64,000 nucleotides of DNA from Desulfovibrio mangrovi (GTDB lineage Bacteria; Desulfobacterota; Desulfovibrionia; Desulfovibrionales; Desulfovibrionaceae): positions 1,240,001 through 1,304,000 of the forward strand of contig NZ_CP104208.1 in NCBI RefSeq assembly GCF_026230175.1, in the 5' to 3' direction. A program made the translations under genes and the position numbers. Positions 31,598 to 40,095 of the stretch are shown here, piece after piece. Each line of letters starts with the position of its first letter. Position 1 is the stretch's first letter. Under the pieces are notes generated by a model. That model searched no databases and was not told where the DNA came from. It saw nothing but the letters and a program-made list of their open reading frames with translations.

Positions 31598-31620
31598 TCC
31601 TTCCCCGGTCTCAAACATTG

Positions 31621-31651
31621 AGCCCGTGTTCGTCAGAACACGGGCTTTTTT
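31621..31651 (+). terminator. Intrinsic terminator after rho
   Basis: An 11-bp perfect stem (AGCCCGTGTTC with GAACACGGGCT) with a GTCA loop and a T6 tract ends the long housekeeping run. Confidence 0.92.
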
Positions 31652-32032
31652 CGTTTTTACGCTATATAGCACCCCAGTGACTCCTGCATACGCATTACAG
31701 GCATGAAAAACTTTTCACATACTCCAATCAATGGACTGTTCACACAAACAACTATTAATCACTCACAAAAGCGAAGTCACTGCACTCCAACGGCCTTGTC
31801 ACATCTATATTCGACATGCAACACCTTACAACTGTATTGCCACATATTGAACATTCAATCACCACAGCACTGCCGTAACAATCAATAATTTCTATTGAAA
31901 TCACCCCAAAAGATTTGCAATCCATTGACACAACACGAAAAGGGATTGTAACTATCTATGCGGTTACAACAAAGCTATAGGGTGTTATATAGCTAGGGGT
32001 TTTTCAAAACGCCAAAAAGTAAGGAGGCAGGG
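31652..32032 (+). other. AT-rich regulatory spacer upstream of hysBA
   Basis: About 380 nt between the rho terminator and hysB without a credible gene; it is clearly richer in A and T than its surroundings. It holds TTCACA half-sites at 31714 and 31739, a consensus-like TTGACA at 31925-31930 without a clear -10 at 17-18 nt, the dyad at 31946-31969, a 7-bp hairpin at 31973-31994 and the strong TAAGGAGG ribosome site of hysB. Confidence 0.6.
31946..31969. promoter_or_regulatory. Perfect dyad TTGTAAC-N10-GTTACAA upstream of hysB
   Basis: Two perfect 7-bp inverted half-sites are separated by one helical turn plus centre spacing typical of a dimeric regulator. It lies 15 nt after a TTGACA hexamer and 63 nt before the hysB ATG, where a repressor or activator of the hydrogenase promoter would bind. 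I do not recognise the regulator; it does not match the Rex, HcpR or Fur consensus that I know. Confidence 0.5.
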
Positions 32033-32989
32033 ATGAGTCTCAGCAGGCGTGATTTTGTTAAAATGTGCACAGGCACGGTGGCAGGCATGGGTATTTCCCA
32101 GATGTTCCACCCCAGTGTCTGTGAAGCCATTTCCGGCACTCTGAACGGCAGCCGTCCGCCCGTTCTGTGGTTGCAGGGTTCTGGCTGCACCGGTTGTTCA
32201 GTATCGTTGCTGAACGCCGTTAACCCTCACATCAAGCAGGTACTGCTTGATGTCATCAGCCTTGAATTCCACCCCACCGTTATGGCTTGGGAAGGCGAAC
32301 CCGCCATGGAGCACATGTTCAAGATTGCTGATGAATACAAGGGTGGCTTCTTCCTCGCAGTGGAAGGCTCCATCCCTGTTGCCGAAGACGGCAAGTTCTG
32401 CGTTATCGGTGAAGCCCATCACAAGGAAATCACCATGGTTGACGCAATGAAGGAACTCGCACCCAAGGCTGCCGCTGTGCTCGCACTCGGCACCTGTGCC
32501 GCTTACGGCGGCATTCCCGCTGCAGAAGGCAGCGAAACCGGTGCAATGTCCGTCAAGGCATTCTTCGAACAGGAAGGCATTTCCACCCCCGTAGTGAACA
32601 TCCCCGGTTGCCCCCCCCATCCTGACTGGATCGTGGGTACCGTGGTTGTCGCCCTTGAGGCCATCAAGACCCACGGTCTTGCCGCTGGTCTGGGTGAAGT
32701 CGTCAAGCTGCTTGATGATCAGGGCCGCCCCACTCCCTTCTTCGGTGAGAACATTCACGACAACTGTCCCTACCTCCCCGATTTCGAGGCGGACAAGATG
32801 TGTGAAACTCTCAGCCAGAAGGACGGCTGCCGCATGAGCGTGGGCTGTAAGGGTCCCAACGCCATGGCAGACTGCTTCAAGCGCAAGTGGAACAACGGCA
32901 TCAACTGGTGCGTTCAGAACGCTGTATGTATCGGTTGCGTAGAACCTGACTTCCCCGATGGGCAGTCTCCGTTCTACGAGTCCCTGTAA
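32033..32989 (+). CDS. hysB: Periplasmic [NiFeSe] hydrogenase small subunit
   Basis: Electron-transfer subunit with three iron-sulfur clusters. The 318-aa precursor starts with a Tat signal (SRRDFVK at residues 4-10) that carries the folded heterodimer to the periplasm. Cluster ligands follow: proximal GSGCTGC (C52, C55), GTCAAYGG and GCPPHPDW, then the C-terminal cysteine-rich region with NCPYLPDF, CKGPNAMADC and CIGCVEPDFPD. Eight C residues in a row (32611-32618) encode part of GCPPHP. It precedes hysA by 40 nt and has TAAGGAGG upstream. Pairing with the Sec-containing large subunit identifies it as HysB. Confidence 0.94.
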   Translation: MSLSRRDFVKMCTGTVAGMGISQMFHPSVCEAISGTLNGSRPPVLWLQGSGCTGCSVSLLNAVNPHIKQVLLDVISLEFHPTVMAWEGEPAMEHMFKIADEYKGGFFLAVEGSIPVAEDGKFCVIGEAHHKEITMVDAMKELAPKAAAVLALGTCAAYGGIPAAEGSETGAMSVKAFFEQEGISTPVVNIPGCPPHPDWIVGTVVVALEAIKTHGLAAGLGEVVKLLDDQGRPTPFFGENIHDNCPYLPDFEADKMCETLSQKDGCRMSVGCKGPNAMADCFKRKWNNGINWCVQNAVCIGCVEPDFPDGQSPFYESL

Positions 32990-33029
32990 GCTGGCTTTGA
33001 CGTCTTTCATCGTTTGAAGGAGGAACAAT

Positions 33030-34574
33030 ATGTCTTCTTGTGCACGCAAAGGTGCAGCCGGCCACGGTAAGACTGCGCACATTGCCATCGATCCGGTTAC
33101 CCGAATCGAAGGTCACCTCAAGGCTGAAGTGACCGTTGAAGGTGGCAAGGTCGTAGATGCCAAGCTTTCCGGCGGCATGTATCGCGGTTTTGAAACCATT
33201 CTCCGCGGTCGCGACCCCCGCGACTCTTCCCAGATCGTACAGCGTATCTGTGGCGTGTGCCCCACCGCTCACGCTACTGCTTCCGTTATGGCTCAGGATG
33301 CAGCCATGGGCACCAAGGTGACCACCAACGGCCGCATCACCCGTAACCTTATCCTCGGCGCCAACTACCTGCAGTCTCACATTCTGCACTTCTATCACCT
33401 GGCCGCCCAGGACTTCGTTCAGGGTCCCGACAGCGCTCCCTTCGTGCCGCGCTACAAGAACTCTGACCTGCTTACCGACCGTAACAAGGGTCTCGCCGCT
33501 ATCAACGCCGCTGCCGTTGACCAGTACGTGGAAGCCCTTGATGTTCGCCAGATCTGCCATGAAATGGTAGCCATGTTCGGCGGCAAGATGCCTCACGCTC
33601 AGGGCCTCGTGGCCGGTGGCGCATCCGAAATTCCCACCAAGGATCGCATCCTTGAGTACGCTGCCCGTTTCGACAAGGTTAAAGAATTTGTTCTCAACAA
33701 GTATCTGCCTGTCGTTTACACCGTTGGTTCCCAGTACAAGGATCTCTTCGCAGTAGGCCAGGGCCATCGCGCCTGTATCGCCTACGGCGTATTCCCGCTG
33801 AACGACGAAATGACCAAGTTCATGATGAAGCCCGGCGTATACTACGGCGGCAAGGACCATGAACTTGATCCTTCCAAGATTCACGAAGACGTGAAGTACT
33901 CCTGGTTCGACGACAGCACCACCGGTCTGCACTACTCCAAGGGCCAGACCAAGGTTTCTCCCCACAAGGAAGGCGCTTACTCCTTCGTTAAGGCTCCCCG
34001 TTACAACGGCGTTGCCTGCGAAGTGGGTCCGCTGGCCCGTATGTGGATTGAGAACCCGCCCCTGTCCCCCATCGGCCAGAAGGCTCTCAAGGAGCACTTC
34101 GGCCTCGACGCCAAGAACTTCCGCGATCTGGGCGAAGACGCAGCGTTCTCTCTCATGGGCCGCCACGTAGCCCGTGCTGAAGAAACCTGGTACATGCTCA
34201 GCTTCGTTGAGTCCTGGCTGAAGGAAGTAAAGCCCGGTGAAGAAACCTACGTGAAGCCCGAAATTCCGGCTTCCGGCGAAGGTACCGGTTTCACCGAAGC
34301 TCCCCGCGGCGCCCTGCTGCACTTCCTGAAGATCGAAGACAGCAAGATCGACAACTATCAGGTTGTTTCCGCTACCCTGTGGAACTGCAACCCCCGCGAC
34401 GACAAGGGTCAGCGCGGTCCTGTCGAAGAAGCCCTCATCGGCATTCCCGTTCCGGACATTGAAAACCCCGTGAACGTGGCGCGTCTCATTCGCGCCTTTG
34501 ACCCGTGACTGGGCTGTGCCGTGCACGTGATGCACGCAGAGTCCGGCAAGGTTTCTGTTGTTGAGTGCAAGTAA
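33030..34574 (+). CDS. hysA: Periplasmic [NiFeSe] hydrogenase large subunit, selenoprotein (in-frame UGA = Sec493)
   Basis: Catalytic subunit that splits or makes H2. The reading frame has a UGA at 34506-34508 and continues in frame to TAA at 34572-34574, giving 514 residues. N-terminal nickel ligands are C74 and C77 (RICGVC); the C-terminal motif reads D-P-Sec-L-G-C-A-V-H, with Sec493 replacing the first cysteine of DPCxxC and C496 the last ligand. Cleavage after H499 would remove a 15-residue tail. Standard gene callers stop at the UGA and lose the active site. The N-terminus MSSC resembles the lipidated N-terminus described for the D. vulgaris enzyme. A candidate maturation protease follows. 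Confidence 0.95.
34506..34536 (+). promoter_or_regulatory. Sec codon and bacterial SECIS hairpin of hysA
   Basis: The UGA at 34506-34508 is followed 11 nt later by a perfect 6-bp stem (CGTGCA 34520-34525 with TGCACG 34531-34536) closing a CGTGA loop. A loop G lies about 18 nt after the UGA, within the spacing usual for bacterial SECIS elements read by SelB. Confidence 0.75.
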
Positions 34575-34598
34575 CTCAATGTAGATTCCGCCAAGTCG

Positions 34599-34627
34599 AG
34601 AGGGCCGGTTTATCCGGCCCTCTTTTT
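34599..34627 (+). terminator. Intrinsic terminator after hysA
   Basis: A 10-bp perfect stem (AGAGGGCCGG with CCGGCCCTCT) with a 5-nt loop and T5 ends the hysBA transcript and separates it from the maturation protease gene. Confidence 0.9.
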
Positions 34628-34652
34628 ACTGGAACCACCTGCATTAATGCGG

Positions 34653-34720
34653 TGCGTGCCTTCTGCCAGCCGGAGGGAGCAATCCCTCCGGACTGGTAAG
34701 GCGCTCGACTTTCCGCGCAC
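34653..34720 (+). other. Large structured element between hysA and the maturation protease gene
   Basis: Nested stems: GTGCG/CGCAC outer, GCCTT/AAGGC, CCAG/CTGG, and a perfect 9-bp CCGGAGGGA/TCCCTCCGG capped by a GCAA tetraloop. It has no T-run and follows the hysA terminator. A further 7-bp hairpin (GCGGCTT/AAGCCGC) lies at 34755-34773. It could be an mRNA leader of the protease gene, a small RNA or a dispersed palindromic repeat. Confidence 0.5.
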
Positions 34721-34831
34721 GCCTTATGGCTGCGCATGCAATTTGCTGTATACTGCGGCTTGCGGCAAGCCGCCCCATCGGGGTATCGTCCACTCCGTCC
34801 AAAGAACTTTTGCCAACTGACAGGATTCACC

Positions 34832-35311
34832 ATGGGAAAACTACTCGTACTGGGCATTGGCAACAGCCTGCTCACCGACGACGGCGTCGGCGTATTTGCC
34901 GCAGAAACTCTGCAAAAGGAAACGTGGCCTGAAGAAGTCACCATCATAGAAGGCGGCACCTTCACTCAGGACATTTTCTATCTCTTTGAAGGCTATGACA
35001 GATTGCTGGTTCTGGATGTTATCCATGCCGGACACGAGCCCGGCACACTGTATCAGTTGACCGAGGAAGACCTTGTATCCAACGAAAGCCAGCGTATTTC
35101 CATTCATGACATCGATATGCTGGATTCTTTGAAAATGTGTGAACTCAAATGCGGCAGCAGACCTCGCATGGAAATCATTGGAATGCAGCCCAAAGACATC
35201 ACGACATGGAACATAGGTCTCTCAGAACCATGTCAGGCACGTTTTGACGAGTTTATCAGACTCGCGCGCAAGGAAATCGCACGCATTGTCGAAGAAATGC
35301 GTCAGGCATAG
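34832..35311 (+). CDS. Hydrogenase maturation protease (HyaD/HybD family), probably for HysA
   Basis: Nickel-dependent endopeptidase that removes the C-terminal tail of the large subunit after metal insertion. The 159-aa protein has the family start LLVLGIGNSLLTDDGVG, the DVIHAG aspartate and the IHDID histidine. Where HybD has a nickel-binding Glu (TDE) this protein has Asp (TDD), as in HycI-type proteases. Position just after hysBA suggests HysA as substrate; HynA has its own candidate at 38706. AGGA precedes the ATG; a longer frame to 34736 would enter the upstream hairpin. Confidence 0.88.
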   Translation: MGKLLVLGIGNSLLTDDGVGVFAAETLQKETWPEEVTIIEGGTFTQDIFYLFEGYDRLLVLDVIHAGHEPGTLYQLTEEDLVSNESQRISIHDIDMLDSLKMCELKCGSRPRMEIIGMQPKDITTWNIGLSEPCQARFDEFIRLARKEIARIVEEMRQA

Positions 35312-35315
35312 ATAA

Positions 35316-35352
35316 CAACAAGGCCCCGCTACCAAGCGGGGCCTTGTTGTTT
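35316..35352 (+). terminator. Strong intrinsic terminator after the HysA protease gene
   Basis: A 14-bp perfect stem (CAACAAGGCCCCGC with GCGGGGCCTTGTTG) with a 6-nt loop and a short T tract isolates the hys block from the hyn block. Confidence 0.9.
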
Positions 35353-35928
35353 CCTACCAGAAGAGTTGTCTTTCTTCTGAAAAAAAGTTTTCGAAACATT
35401 CTTTTTCCTCAGCAGAACTGATTGCACAACCAGCATCTCCCCTTATCCTAACTCTTCCGCACCTCACTCATCGACGACAGCGCCCGACAGCGCATTCGTC
35501 TGTCTTGCCCCCTCCACTCTGCATCAACACTTGCTCGCCGGACATTGCTCCCGATGTGCCGCGCTTCGGCTTTATTGCCTACCGCAAAGATAGTTTTTCC
35601 ACCTTCTGCACTGCGCATCCGTTCAACAATACCTACTACAAAATTGAGAATATCTTTTTTTCAATCAAAAATTTCAATCGATACTCCTGCATTACATGCC
35701 CCAACTCTATCGTTACTGATATTTTTTATTAAACCCACTTTATCTTTTTGATATTTCTATTGTATAGTCCCTCCGACTCCCGTTTCTGGTTGCTGTTTGA
35801 AGCGGGAGGCTTGCGCATACCTATCCTGGCAGAAGGTAACGCACCATTCCGGACGTTCTGTCCGGTCACACTCCGGTGTTTGGGATGCACCGGAGAATGC
35901 AGACCCTGTTTTATTCAAGGAGGTTCCT
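35353..35928 (+). other. Non-coding spacer upstream of hynBA
   Basis: About 575 nt with no credible gene; short frames at 35505-35751 and the upstream extension of hynB have no family features. The first 400 nt are AT-rich. A possible -10 TATAGT lies at 35763-35768 with only a weak -35. The last 100 nt hold two consecutive hairpins and the hynB ribosome site AAGGAGG. Confidence 0.6.
35849..35895 (+). promoter_or_regulatory. Tandem hairpins in the hynB leader
   Basis: Hairpin 1 pairs CCGGAC with GTCCGG around GTTCT (35849-35865). Hairpin 2, starting 5 nt later, is a perfect 8-bp stem CTCCGGTG with CACCGGAG around 9 nt (35871-35895). Both lie between the presumed promoter and the hynB start at 35929. 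CCGG-containing strands of the two could pair with each other, allowing alternative folds. Confidence 0.45.
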
Positions 35929-36882
35929 ATGAAGTTTTCCGTGGGTCTCGGCAAAGAAGGCGTGGAAGAGCGCCTGGAACGGAACGGCGTATCCCGTCGT
36001 GACTTCCTGAAGTTCTGCTCCGCCCTCGCTGTTGCCATGGGTATGGGACCGGCTTTCGGCACCGAAATTGCCAGAGCCATGACCGCTCCCGGTCGCCCTT
36101 CCGTGGTATACCTGCATAATGCCGAGTGCACCGGCTGTTCCGAATCGGTTCTGCGGGCTTTCCAGCCCTTCATTGACGAACTGATTCTGGACACCATCTC
36201 TCTCGACTACCATGAAACCATCATGGCGGCAGCCGGCGAAGCTGCTGAAGAAGCCCTGCACCACGCAGTGAACAGCCCCCACGGTTTCATCGCCGTGACG
36301 GAAGGCGCTCTGCCCACCAAAGACAACGGCATCTACGGTAAGGTTGCCGGTCGCACCATGCTGGAGATCAACAGCGAAATCCTGCCCAAGGCAAAGGCTG
36401 TGATCAACTACGGCACCTGCGCCACCTTCGGCGGCGTGCAGGCTGCGGCTCCCAACCCGACCGATGCCAAGGGCGTGAACGACGCACTCAAGCATCTGGG
36501 CGTGAACGGCATCAACATCTCCGGTTGTCCGCCAAACCCCTACAACCTTGTGGGCACCATCGTTTACTATCTGACCAAGCATGCCCTGCCTGAACTGGAC
36601 AGCCTGAACCGGCCTACCATGTTCTTCGGCCAGACCGTTCATGAAAACTGCCCCCGCCTCAAGCACTTCGAGGCCGGCGAGTTTGCCACATCCTTCGGCT
36701 CCGAAGAAGCCCAAAAGGGCTGGTGCCTCTATGAACTGGGCTGCAAGGGACCTGATACCTACAACAACTGTCCCAAGATCAAATTCAACCAGACGAACTG
36801 GCCCGTTGAAGCGGGTCATCCCTGCATCGGCTGCTCCGAGCCCGATTTCTGGGATGCCATGAGTCCCTTCTACGAAAGCTAG
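35929..36882 (+). CDS. hynB: Periplasmic [NiFe] hydrogenase small subunit
   Basis: Iron-sulfur subunit of the standard periplasmic uptake [NiFe] hydrogenase. The 317-aa precursor has a Tat motif SRRDFLK at 22-28 followed by a hydrophobic stretch. Cluster ligands: ECTGCSE (proximal), [16 protein letters not shown], then [29 protein letters not shown] and [11 protein letters not shown]. The start at 35929 has AAGGAGG 5 nt upstream; the longer frame runs through leader hairpins. hynA follows by 47 nt. Electrons probably pass to the periplasmic cytochrome c3 pool, as known for Desulfovibrio. Confidence 0.95.
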
Positions 36883-36929
36883 GCCCGTTACACATTGATC
36901 TTGAACGAACATCCCAAGGAGGATGACAT

Positions 36930-38633
36930 ATGAGCGGTTGTAGAGCGCAGAAGGCCCCTGCCGGTATTCCGGTAACTCCTCAGAGCAATTACTCCGGTAA
37001 GGTGGTCGTAGACCCCATTACCCGTATTGAGGGGCATCTCCGTATCGAAGTTGAAGTTGATAACGGCAAGATCTCCAATGTTTGGAGTTCTTCTCAGCTG
37101 TTCCGCGGTCTGGAAATCATTCTGAAGGGCCGCGACCCGCGCGACGCACAGCACTTTACCCAGCGTTCCTGCGGCGTTTGTACCTATGTACATGCTCTTG
37201 CATCCACCCGCTGCGTGGATAATGCCATTGGTGTGCGTATTCCCAAGAACGCCACCCTGATCCGCAATATCGTACTTGGCGCACAGTACATGCACGACCA
37301 CCTCGTGCATTTCTATCACCTGCACGCCCTTGACTGGGTGGACGTGACCAACGCCCTGAAGGCTGATCCGGTAAAGGCGGCCAAGATCGCCAACACCATC
37401 TCCGGACGGCCCACCAAGGCGGAAGACCTGAAGGCCGTGCAGACCAAGCTGAAGACCTTTGTGGAAAGCGGCCAGCTCGGCCCGTTCACCAACGCGTACT
37501 TCCTCGGCGGCCATCCTTCCTACTACCTGGAACCGGAAGTGGACCTCATTGCCACCGCACACTACCTTGAGGCACTGCGCCTGCAGGTAAAGGCTGCCCG
37601 CATGATGGCTGCCTTCGGCGGCAAGAACCCCCACACCCAGTTCACCGTTGCCGGCGGCGTTACCTGCTACGATGCCCTTACTCCCAAGCGCATCAAGGAA
37701 TTCCGTGAACTGTGGAAGGAAACCAACGACTTCATCAATCAGGTATACATTCCCGACCTGTTGGCTGTTGCCGGCAACTACAAGGATTGGAGCCTGTATG
37801 GCGGAACCTCGAACTTCATCACCTTCGGCGAGTTCCCCACGGATGAATATGATCTCAACAGCCGCTTCCTGCCGCCCGGCGTCATCATGAAGCGTGACCT
37901 CGCCAACATGCAGGGCTTCAACCCTGACAAGATCGAAGAGCACGTCAAGTACAGCTGGTACGAAGGCGACAAGGCCCACCATCCCTATCAGGGCGTTACC
38001 GAGCCGCGCTACACCGACATGCACGGCGAAGGCCGCTACTCCTGGATGAAGGCTCCGCGCTACATGGAAGAAGCCATGGAAACCGGCCCTCTTGCTCAGG
38101 TGCTCGCCGCCTATGTAAAGGATCATCCGAAGATCAAGCCTCTGGTGGACATGGTTCTCGCCAAGCTTGGCGTTGGTCCTGAAGCCCTGTTCTCGACCTT
38201 GGGCCGTACCGCTGCCCGCGGCATTGAAACCGTCGTCATCGCCGAAGAAACCGGTCGCATGCTCGACGAACTGGAAGCCAACGTGGCCGCCGGCGACACG
38301 AAGATCTACGAAGAGATCGAAATGCCCCGCGATGCAGAAGGCGTCGGCTTCGTCACCGCTCCCCGTGGCGGCCTGTCCCACTGGATCAAGATTCGCGATC
38401 ACAAGATCGAGAACTTCCAACTGGTTGTGCCCTCCACCTGGAGCCTCGGACCGCGCTGTGCAAAGGATAAGATCTCTCCCGTCGAGGAAGCTCTTATCGG
38501 CACGCCCGTTGCCGATCCCAAGCGCCCCGTGGAAATCCTGCGTACGGTCCACTCCTTCGACCCTTGCATCGCCTGCGGCGTGCACGTGATCGACAGCCAG
38601 ACCAACGAAGTCCACAAGTTCAAGATCCTGTAA
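36930..38633 (+). CDS. hynA: Periplasmic [NiFe] hydrogenase large subunit
   Basis: Catalytic subunit with the Ni-Fe(CN)2CO site. The 567 residues contain the N-terminal ligand pair C81 and C84 (RSCGVC) after DPITRIEGHLRIE, and the C-terminal pair C546 and C549 (DPCIACGVH). Processing after H552 would remove 15 residues (VIDSQTNEVHKFKIL). In contrast to hysA the first C-terminal ligand is a normal Cys codon. The N-terminus MSGC parallels MSSC of HysA. AAGGAGG lies upstream of the ATG. No signal peptide: it is exported with HynB. Confidence 0.96.
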   Translation: MSGCRAQKAPAGIPVTPQSNYSGKVVVDPITRIEGHLRIEVEVDNGKISNVWSSSQLFRGLEIILKGRDPRDAQHFTQRSCGVCTYVHALASTRCVDNAIGVRIPKNATLIRNIVLGAQYMHDHLVHFYHLHALDWVDVTNALKADPVKAAKIANTISGRPTKAEDLKAVQTKLKTFVESGQLGPFTNAYFLGGHPSYYLEPEVDLIATAHYLEALRLQVKAARMMAAFGGKNPHTQFTVAGGVTCYDALTPKRIKEFRELWKETNDFINQVYIPDLLAVAGNYKDWSLYGGTSNFITFGEFPTDEYDLNSRFLPPGVIMKRDLANMQGFNPDKIEEHVKYSWYEGDKAHHPYQGVTEPRYTDMHGEGRYSWMKAPRYMEEAMETGPLAQVLAAYVKDHPKIKPLVDMVLAKLGVGPEALFSTLGRTAARGIETVVIAEETGRMLDELEANVAAGDTKIYEEIEMPRDAEGVGFVTAPRGGLSHWIKIRDHKIENFQLVVPSTWSLGPRCAKDKISPVEEALIGTPVADPKRPVEILRTVHSFDPCIACGVHVIDSQTNEVHKFKIL

Positions 38634-38658
38634 TTTTGCAGGATAATCCAAAAAACTC

Positions 38659-38690
38659 GGGAACCCGGCCTTGCGCCGGGTTCCCTTTTT
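38659..38690 (+). terminator. Intrinsic terminator between hynA and its maturation protease gene
   Basis: An 11-bp perfect stem (GGGAACCCGGC with GCCGGGTTCCC), 5-nt loop and T5 lie 26 nt after hynA and 16 nt before the protease ATG. It may lower expression of the protease and hypC relative to the structural genes. Confidence 0.88.
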
Positions 38691-38705
38691 CAGATAAGGT
38701 GACGC

Positions 38706-39200
38706 ATGAGCGAATCTAAACGAATTCTGGTACTTGGTGTCGGGAACATACTCTACACTGATGAGGGGCTGGGAGTCCGTGCTGTTGAACGACTGCAGCA
38801 ATCATATGACTTTTCCGACAACGTCACCCTCATGGACGGCGGCACGCTGGGCATGAAACTCATGGATTCCATGATGGACAGCGATTATCTGATCGTAGTA
38901 GATGCCGTTCTTGGAGGGAGTGATCCCGCTTCCGTATACCGTCTTACAGGCGAAGACCTGCGGAAGAGTCTGGGGTTCAACGATTCCATGCACCAGACCG
39001 ATCTTGTAGATACACTCATCTACTGCGAACTCGCCGGTAACAGGCCGGAAACAGTGGTCATAGGCATGGAACCTGTGGACTATCAGACCATGGGGATAGA
39101 CGTCTCGCCTGAAGTGGCCGAACGAATTCCGGCCATGTGCGGATTCGTCCTTGACGAAATAGCTGCCGCTGGTGGAAGCTACAGCGCCAAGGCGCCCTAA
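38706..39200 (+). CDS. Hydrogenase maturation protease (HyaD/HybD family), probably for HynA
   Basis: The 164-aa protein starts RILVLGVGNILYTDEGLG, with the Glu expected to bind nickel in the TDE motif, followed by VVDAVLGG (second ligand, Asp) and SMHQTDL (third, His). It should cut the HynA C-terminal extension once nickel is inserted. It lies after a terminator that follows hynA, has AAGGTG before the ATG, and precedes hypC by 40 nt. It differs from the protease at 34832 in the E/D ligand, consistent with separate substrates. Confidence 0.9.
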   Translation: MSESKRILVLGVGNILYTDEGLGVRAVERLQQSYDFSDNVTLMDGGTLGMKLMDSMMDSDYLIVVDAVLGGSDPASVYRLTGEDLRKSLGFNDSMHQTDLVDTLIYCELAGNRPETVVIGMEPVDYQTMGIDVSPEVAERIPAMCGFVLDEIAAAGGSYSAKAP

Positions 39201-39240
39201 CGCGCCCACATCTTTCACATACGAACGCCCGGAGGTTGCC

Positions 39241-39492
39241 ATGTGCCTTGCCATTCCTGCTGAAGTTGTTGAACTCACCCCCAACGACATGGCACGCTGT
39301 CGCGTCGGCAAAAGTGACACCTATGTCGACGTATCCACAATGCTGCTCGAATCTCCCGCCGAACTCGGCGATTACCTTATCGTCCATGCAGGCTTCGCAC
39401 TGCGCAAGCTCGACTTTCAGGAAGCACAGGAAACCCTGAGACTGCTGCGTCAGATGGCGAATATCAACGAAGAAACCCCCGGGGCCTTCTAA
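39241..39492 (+). CDS. hypC: Hydrogenase assembly chaperone HypC/HybG
   Basis: An 83-aa chaperone that carries the Fe(CN)2CO group with HypD and holds the large subunit during nickel insertion. It begins MCLAIPAEVVEL, with the essential N-terminal Cys2, and has the conserved GDYLIVHAGFALRKLD strand and a C-terminal helix. GGAGG precedes the ATG by 6 nt. The other Hyp proteins (A, B, D, E, F) are not encoded in the window. Confidence 0.95.
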   Translation: MCLAIPAEVVELTPNDMARCRVGKSDTYVDVSTMLLESPAELGDYLIVHAGFALRKLDFQEAQETLRLLRQMANINEETPGAF

Positions 39493-39525
39493 CCCTCATA
39501 ACAGTCATTGCCATCAGGTGTCGTC

Positions 39526-40095
39526 GTGAAACGTCTGAAAACCATCGTAGCCCTCGGAGACTCGCTAACCGAGGGCTTTGGCATTCCGGCAGAGGCATCT
39601 TTCCCCGCAGTCCTGCAATCGCTGCTGCGTAGTAAGGGACACAATGTGTCCATCATCAATCAGGGACTGTCCGGCGACACGGCCTGGGGCGGCAAGAAAC
39701 GTCTTGACCGCTACCTCGCCAACAAACCCCGCCCCGATGCGGTTATCGTGGAACTCGGCGCCAACGACGCCATCCAGTTCACGGATCCGTGGGATGTGGA
39801 AGCCACGCTGGACAGCATTCTGCAGCGCCTGACGGAGCTGGAGATCCCCTTCATGCTCACCGGCATGAAGATGCTGCTCCCTTCCGACGGCGACTATGCC
39901 GAAGCCTTCGAAAGCATTTACCTCAAGCTGGCGGAACGCTACGATCCCGTCTTCTATCCGTTCTTCCTCGAAGGCGTGTTCGGCAATCCGGCCCTGAACC
40001 TTGAAGACGGCATCCACCCCAATATTGCAGGAACGGCCCGTATAGCCGAGAGCGTTCTCCCCTTTGCGGAATCTCTGCTTGCGCGGGTGCCCTAG
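39526..40095 (+). CDS. GDSL-family esterase/lysophospholipase (TesA-like; GTG start)
   Basis: A 189-aa SGNH hydrolase. Block I is ALGDSLTEGFGIP with the catalytic serine, block II the glycine in GLSGDTAWGG, block III LGANDA with the oxyanion asparagine, and block V DGIHPN with the Asp-x-x-His dyad. No signal peptide is seen with this start, so it may be cytoplasmic unlike E. coli TesA. The GTG at 39526 follows AGGTG by 6 nt; a TTG at 39508 is the alternative. It lies 33 nt after hypC but has no obvious hydrogenase role. Confidence 0.82.
   Translation: MKRLKTIVALGDSLTEGFGIPAEASFPAVLQSLLRSKGHNVSIINQGLSGDTAWGGKKRLDRYLANKPRPDAVIVELGANDAIQFTDPWDVEATLDSILQRLTELEIPFMLTGMKMLLPSDGDYAEAFESIYLKLAERYDPVFYPFFLEGVFGNPALNLEDGIHPNIAGTARIAESVLPFAESLLARVP

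Follow-up and report, generated by a model that had tools for sequence, protein, structure and literature searches.

The hysA gene of the window, the whole 64,000-nucleotide stretch of DNA analysed here, almost certainly encodes a periplasmic [NiFeSe] hydrogenase large subunit in a Halodesulfovibrio-type sulfate reducer and carries an in-frame UGA that is read as selenocysteine (Sec) through SelB and a bSECIS hairpin. The frame (33030-34574, forward strand) opens with the ATG at 33030 and closes with the TAA at 34572-34574, and its sole interruption is the TGA at 34506-34508. As anticipated in the original prediction, 21 sense codons (34509-34571) lie between the TGA and the TAA. Translated with TGA as Sec (U), the product has 514 residues and ends in RAFDP-U-LGCAVH-VMHAESGKVSVVECK. 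Frame reading and comparison with relatives place the Sec at residue 493, the first position of the C-terminal UxxC motif (DP-U-LGC), where the metal-binding C-terminal CxxC would have its first Cys. The proposal that the UGA occupies the position of the first C-terminal nickel-binding cysteine, in DP-U-LGCAVH, is borne out. The protein scores 914.7 bits against the NCBIfam HysA model NF045518 (cut-off 780) and has matches in the PDB. Calling of open reading frames with translation table 11 and no recoding ends hysA at 492 residues, and a UGA taken as a stop would lose the active site. However, current NCBI annotation may cope with the full-length gene, because NCBIfam includes the HysA-specific model NF045518.

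The closest named relatives of HysA belong to Halodesulfovibrio (L025, L044 and L026, with 92%, 85% and 82% identity respectively). Among 55 loci examined, 53 reach the Sec site, and 51 of these 53 carry TGA. The other two carry TGC and are distant Selenomonadales homologues (L047 and L048, 47% and 45% identity). Two matches contain no site, as they cover residues 16-340 (L046) and 10-258 (L049) only and then meet a contig end; two further loci, L057 and L001, represent the window's own copy and were excluded from the relatives. The 51 TGA sites are not independent species, since the same species may recur, and the 20 distinct 45-mers among them are the safer count. Eight other genomes of the same genus are included (L058 and L060-L066). 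The peptide LGCAVHV directly after the TGA is kept in all 51 sites, although the C-terminal tail differs among them in its final residues and in its length, the stop following after 21 codons in 40 of the 51. This distribution bears on the alternative of a genuine stop codon, or of a sequencing error at the TGA, in a gene that would be a Cys enzyme with TGC or a pseudogene. TGC is indeed found in the Selenomonadales homologues and, at the equivalent site (38565), in the downstream paralogue HynA. Yet the recurrence of TGA, not least within the genus, the preservation of the peptide behind it and the strong synonymous constraint immediately 3′ of the TGA described below leave this explanation with a negligible probability, and the error of TGC to TGA against which the original prediction had cautioned fails as an objection.

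A HysA profile search of 247 genomes of the class gave 71 matches over the cut-off, in 70 genomes, and the scores drop from 788.0 bits to 398.7 bits at the next match. All 71 contain an in-frame TGA (one in 70 of them, two in L065); its placement was verified for the best 30 of the 71 (29 relatives and the window's own copy), the remaining 41 being known only to contain one TGA. Since every match contains an in-frame TGA, no Cys-type HysA over the cut-off was seen in these 247 genomes. In L065, from genome G090 of the same genus, the second TGA replaces the Trp codon of the window's SATL-W-NCNPRDD and is a sequencing error or the mark of a broken copy in that genome.

The genome containing the window consists of one contig of 3,947,083 bases. 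The genes selA, selB, selC and selD were sought in it, as their absence would have told against Sec insertion, and all four are present. The tRNA-Sec, with anticodon tca, lies at G000:C1:1456540-1456630 and scores 78.6 bits (gathering score 47), compared to 42.6 bits for the next best of 14 matches in the genome. SelA scores 615.9 bits (cut-off 267.9), SelB 364.2 bits (cut-off 242.25) and SelD 343.6 bits (cut-off 125). A SelB match over the cut-off occurs in 69 of the 70 genomes with HysA, compared to 144 of the 177 others (Fisher P 1.3e-4); these counts were made by hand from the best E-values, with 34 genomes below the cut-off, and agree with the overall figure of 213 in 247 genomes. The one HysA genome without a SelB match over the cut-off is a 510-contig assembly (G214). 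The UGA might instead be read through by tRNA-Trp or another near-cognate tRNA, and some leakage of this kind is compatible with all the data presented here. However, the complete selA-D set, the fit of the hairpin to a published bSECIS model and the naming of the best PDB matches as selenocysteine-containing periplasmic [NiFeSe] hydrogenase large subunits make it extremely unlikely that this is how the codon is decoded. In the two printed alignments, 5jsh has X opposite Sec493, and 5jsu has C. The reading of this position as Sec in the native enzyme draws on established knowledge and on the name given by the depositors.

Other TGA-containing genes were noted in the same genome. The selD gene (L023, G000:C1:1381215-1382147) has an in-frame TGA in KAAGUAAK and is likely to be a selenoprotein gene as well. 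Two formate dehydrogenase alpha genes over the cut-off and one weaker match (G000:C1:1784403-1787414, 398795-401800 and 39167-39931) contain one TGA each, probably also encoding Sec.

In bacteria, SelB together with Sec-tRNA binds the loop of such an element and delivers Sec at the UGA. The bSECIS core of hysA lies at 34520-34536 on the forward strand. Its 6-bp stem is formed by CGUGCA (34520-34525) and UGCACG (34531-34536) and closes a 5-nt loop, CGUGA (34526-34530), in which position 2 is G and position 3 U; this loop begins 17 nt after the UGA. A 6-bp hairpin with a loop G at SECIS distance, as proposed from the sequence, is thus present. In the bSECIS model of PMC13188914 the loop measures 3-9 nt and lies 16-37 nt from the UGA, and its first or second position is G, with G or U frequently next; the hysA hairpin agrees with this description in every respect. 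In a single sequence the hairpin is weak evidence, because synonymous resampling of LGCAVHVMHAES, with codon usage taken from ten genes of the window, reproduced the six pairs in 20.0% of cases and produced some 6-bp hairpin in 23.0%; the hairpin follows in part from the conserved peptide. Conservation across relatives is the strong and deciding evidence for the hairpin as a SECIS. Each of the 51 TGA sites can form the six pairs, as can each of the 20 distinct 45-mers, in all of which the loop is CGUG plus one base.

Codon usage was then compared with that of the same residues elsewhere in the gene, using 50 of the 51 sites (L040 is without the start motif in the same frame). Codons 494-503, nine of which were scored, show less synonymous variation than any other stretch of the gene, with a summed codon entropy of 3.68 bits compared to the 11.72 bits expected, and none of 20,000 draws reached so low a value. 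Residue 493 was mis-scored (TGA vs C), and two sliding windows with still lower values, both of which include it, were disregarded; among those without residue 493, the 494-503 window has the lowest value. The codons of His499, Val500 and His502 do not vary synonymously at all, where the same residues in other parts of the gene average 0.84, 1.73 and 0.84 bits, whereas those of Cys496 (0.76 vs 0.82) and Ala503 (1.28 vs 1.60) are hardly more constrained than elsewhere. The constraint ends there, and none is seen from residue 504 onward.

These data weigh on a further alternative, in which Sec insertion is real but the hairpin is a by-product of the AVHVxHAE peptide and the SelB-binding element lies elsewhere. 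The frequency of the six pairs among synonymous draws is in its favour, as is the fact that the six-pair stem is the complete minimum-energy fold in only 3 of 51 sites. These folds, calculated on 42 nt, contain the five inner pairs in 49 of 51 sites. The fold of the window joins G34536 to C34519 in place of the sixth stem pair, and in L041 and L074 an alternative minimum-energy fold wins. Nevertheless, codon choice is most constrained precisely at the hairpin, with the three codons named above that lack synonymous variation. Moreover, eight of the 51 sites, which share one distinct sequence and all come from a Halodesulfovibrio subset (two named members and six further genomes of the same genus), have U-A in place of a G-C pair, owing to a silent change of GTG to GTT and a change of CAC to AAC that costs the replacement of His502 by Asn. 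This single compensatory change was reached by 38 of 500 shuffles and does not stand out alone. Taken with the codon constraint, it leaves the by-product explanation very unlikely, and we retain the 34520-34536 hairpin as the bSECIS. The z-scores for folding of the single sequence are 0.37 (29-nt core), -2.72 (40 nt), -2.49 (61 nt) and -1.46 (69 nt), and do not decide the matter. The same hairpin is not folded by the Cys paralogue HynA or by the two TGC homologues. At gathering scores, Rfam gave five matches on the window, none near hysBA, and on six related loci four weak matches, all under gathering scores.

The gene itself, the active-site TGA in its close relatives, the conserved hairpin, the sel set and the dedicated protease are all documented by sequence, and together support the view that the read-through was correctly interpreted. 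Its identification as a selenoprotein gene holds on homology, active-site position, TGA in relatives, bSECIS fit, synonymous-site constraint and the presence of selA-D in its own genome. By analogy with the known enzymes, SelB with Sec-tRNA-Sec would bind the hairpin just 3′ of the UGA, and the ribosome would insert Sec at this codon. The Ni-Fe site would be held by Sec493 and Cys496 together with the N-terminal Cys pair, with the H2 chemistry of the family. Metal insertion would be followed by removal of the 15-residue tail behind His499 by the protease HysD.

The extension V500-K514 is encoded by 34527-34571. In the PDB, the [NiFeSe] large-subunit chains 2wpn, 3ze6, 6ruc, 4kl8 and 1cc1 stop opposite query residue 499 (the histidine of UxxCxxH), and those of 5jsu and 5jsh continue to residue 514. 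This supports removal of the tail after His499, most likely by HysD, and the processed [NiFeSe] chains thus stop at the very histidine predicted for C-terminal processing. As the 3′ arm of the bSECIS lies in codons of the tail discarded by the protease, the conserved VxHAE peptide of this tail might be kept mainly for the RNA, the tail being largely a carrier of the recoding signal; we offer this as a tentative and rather doubtful suggestion, prompted by the U-A pair gained in the Halodesulfovibrio subset together with the change of His502 to Asn.

The structures 5jsu, 5jsh, 3ze6 and 2wpn are, we assume, those of HysAB from Desulfovibrio vulgaris Hildenborough. The large subunits align over query residues 7-514, the processed chains end at the same His and the enzyme is named as selenocysteine-containing; as far as compared, the two differ in sequence divergence only. 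The structures 1cc1 and 4kl8 presumably represent the [NiFeSe] hydrogenase of Desulfomicrobium baculatum, which aligns over query residues 10-499, the end of the chain, with a lower score than the D. vulgaris structures. HysA homologues truncated at an opal codon, with read-through as Sec, a SECIS and sel genes, are described by Tamura et al. 2016 (PMC4730141), and the present gene resembles them in its in-frame opal at the Sec site, the SECIS that follows and selA-D in the host. Since the same is described there and the family has its own NCBIfam models, the hysA finding is correct but ordinary: the observation is real, and read-through of this kind is already known. The words 'Halodesulfovibrio' and 'aestuarii' do not occur in the text of PMC4730141, and among the open-licence papers listed no title or abstract opening dealt with this Halodesulfovibrio gene. 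This class of hydrogenase is noted for oxygen tolerance (PMC4730141). What is gained is confirmation of a correct call from raw sequence and the documentation of a [NiFeSe] hydrogenase in a Halodesulfovibrio-type genome, with no new principle.

The hysA gene is preceded by the gene of its partner small subunit and followed by that of a dedicated maturation protease, all on the forward strand. The product of hysB (32033-32989) scores 581.3 bits against NF045520 (cut-off 470), matches Pfam PF01058 and PF14720, and carries a twin-arginine (Tat) signal (TIGR01409, 24.4 bits, cut-off 16.7) that points to a periplasmic enzyme. The product of hysD (34832-35311) scores 254.9 bits against NF045519 (cut-off 190) and matches Pfam PF01750. 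Between hysA and hysD, a strong hairpin running into a T-run (34598-34627, forward strand; fold of 34590-34632, -25.2 kcal/mol, z -6.06) is likely to be the intrinsic terminator of hysBA. Because of this terminator-like hairpin, hysD may have a transcript of its own or depend on transcription through the hairpin. A promoter and terminator pattern scan of 31600-35400 returned no sigma-70-type site and did not list this hairpin.

A Cys-type [NiFe] hydrogenase set, comprising small subunit, large subunit, protease and HypC, follows at 35923-39489; its large subunit is HynA, with TGC in the same place as the hysA TGA. The gene order in D. vulgaris Hildenborough is, we believe, similar. Of 21 named Sec-site loci, seven (L025-L029, L040 and L044) have the HynA motif downstream of HysA in the same orientation, and L042 has it on the opposite strand; a number of the remaining stretches are short. 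The motif was not found in three stretches from contigs named Desulfomicrobium (L031-L033, one of only 4,422 bases). A third nickel hydrogenase-like large subunit in the genome (G000:C1:498126-499418; L004 and L005) is of the Cys type (DPCISCSTH), with 26-35% identity to HysA.

The region upstream of hysB was aligned for the window and 11 relatives in which the motif was found, of 32 tried. An inverted repeat, AGCTATA-N8-TATAGCT (31973-31994), lies 38 bases 5′ of hysB and is kept with small changes in all four aligned loci of the same genus (the window, L025, L065 and L066); it is a possible operator. In L068, L070, L072, L073 and L079, GTCGCCGTGGCGG is conserved upstream of hysB and precedes a T-run and a leader that is conserved as well. 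Rfam gave no match at gathering score in L068, L070, L073 and L079. In these relatives, GTCGCCGTGGCGG with its T-run is a possible attenuator.
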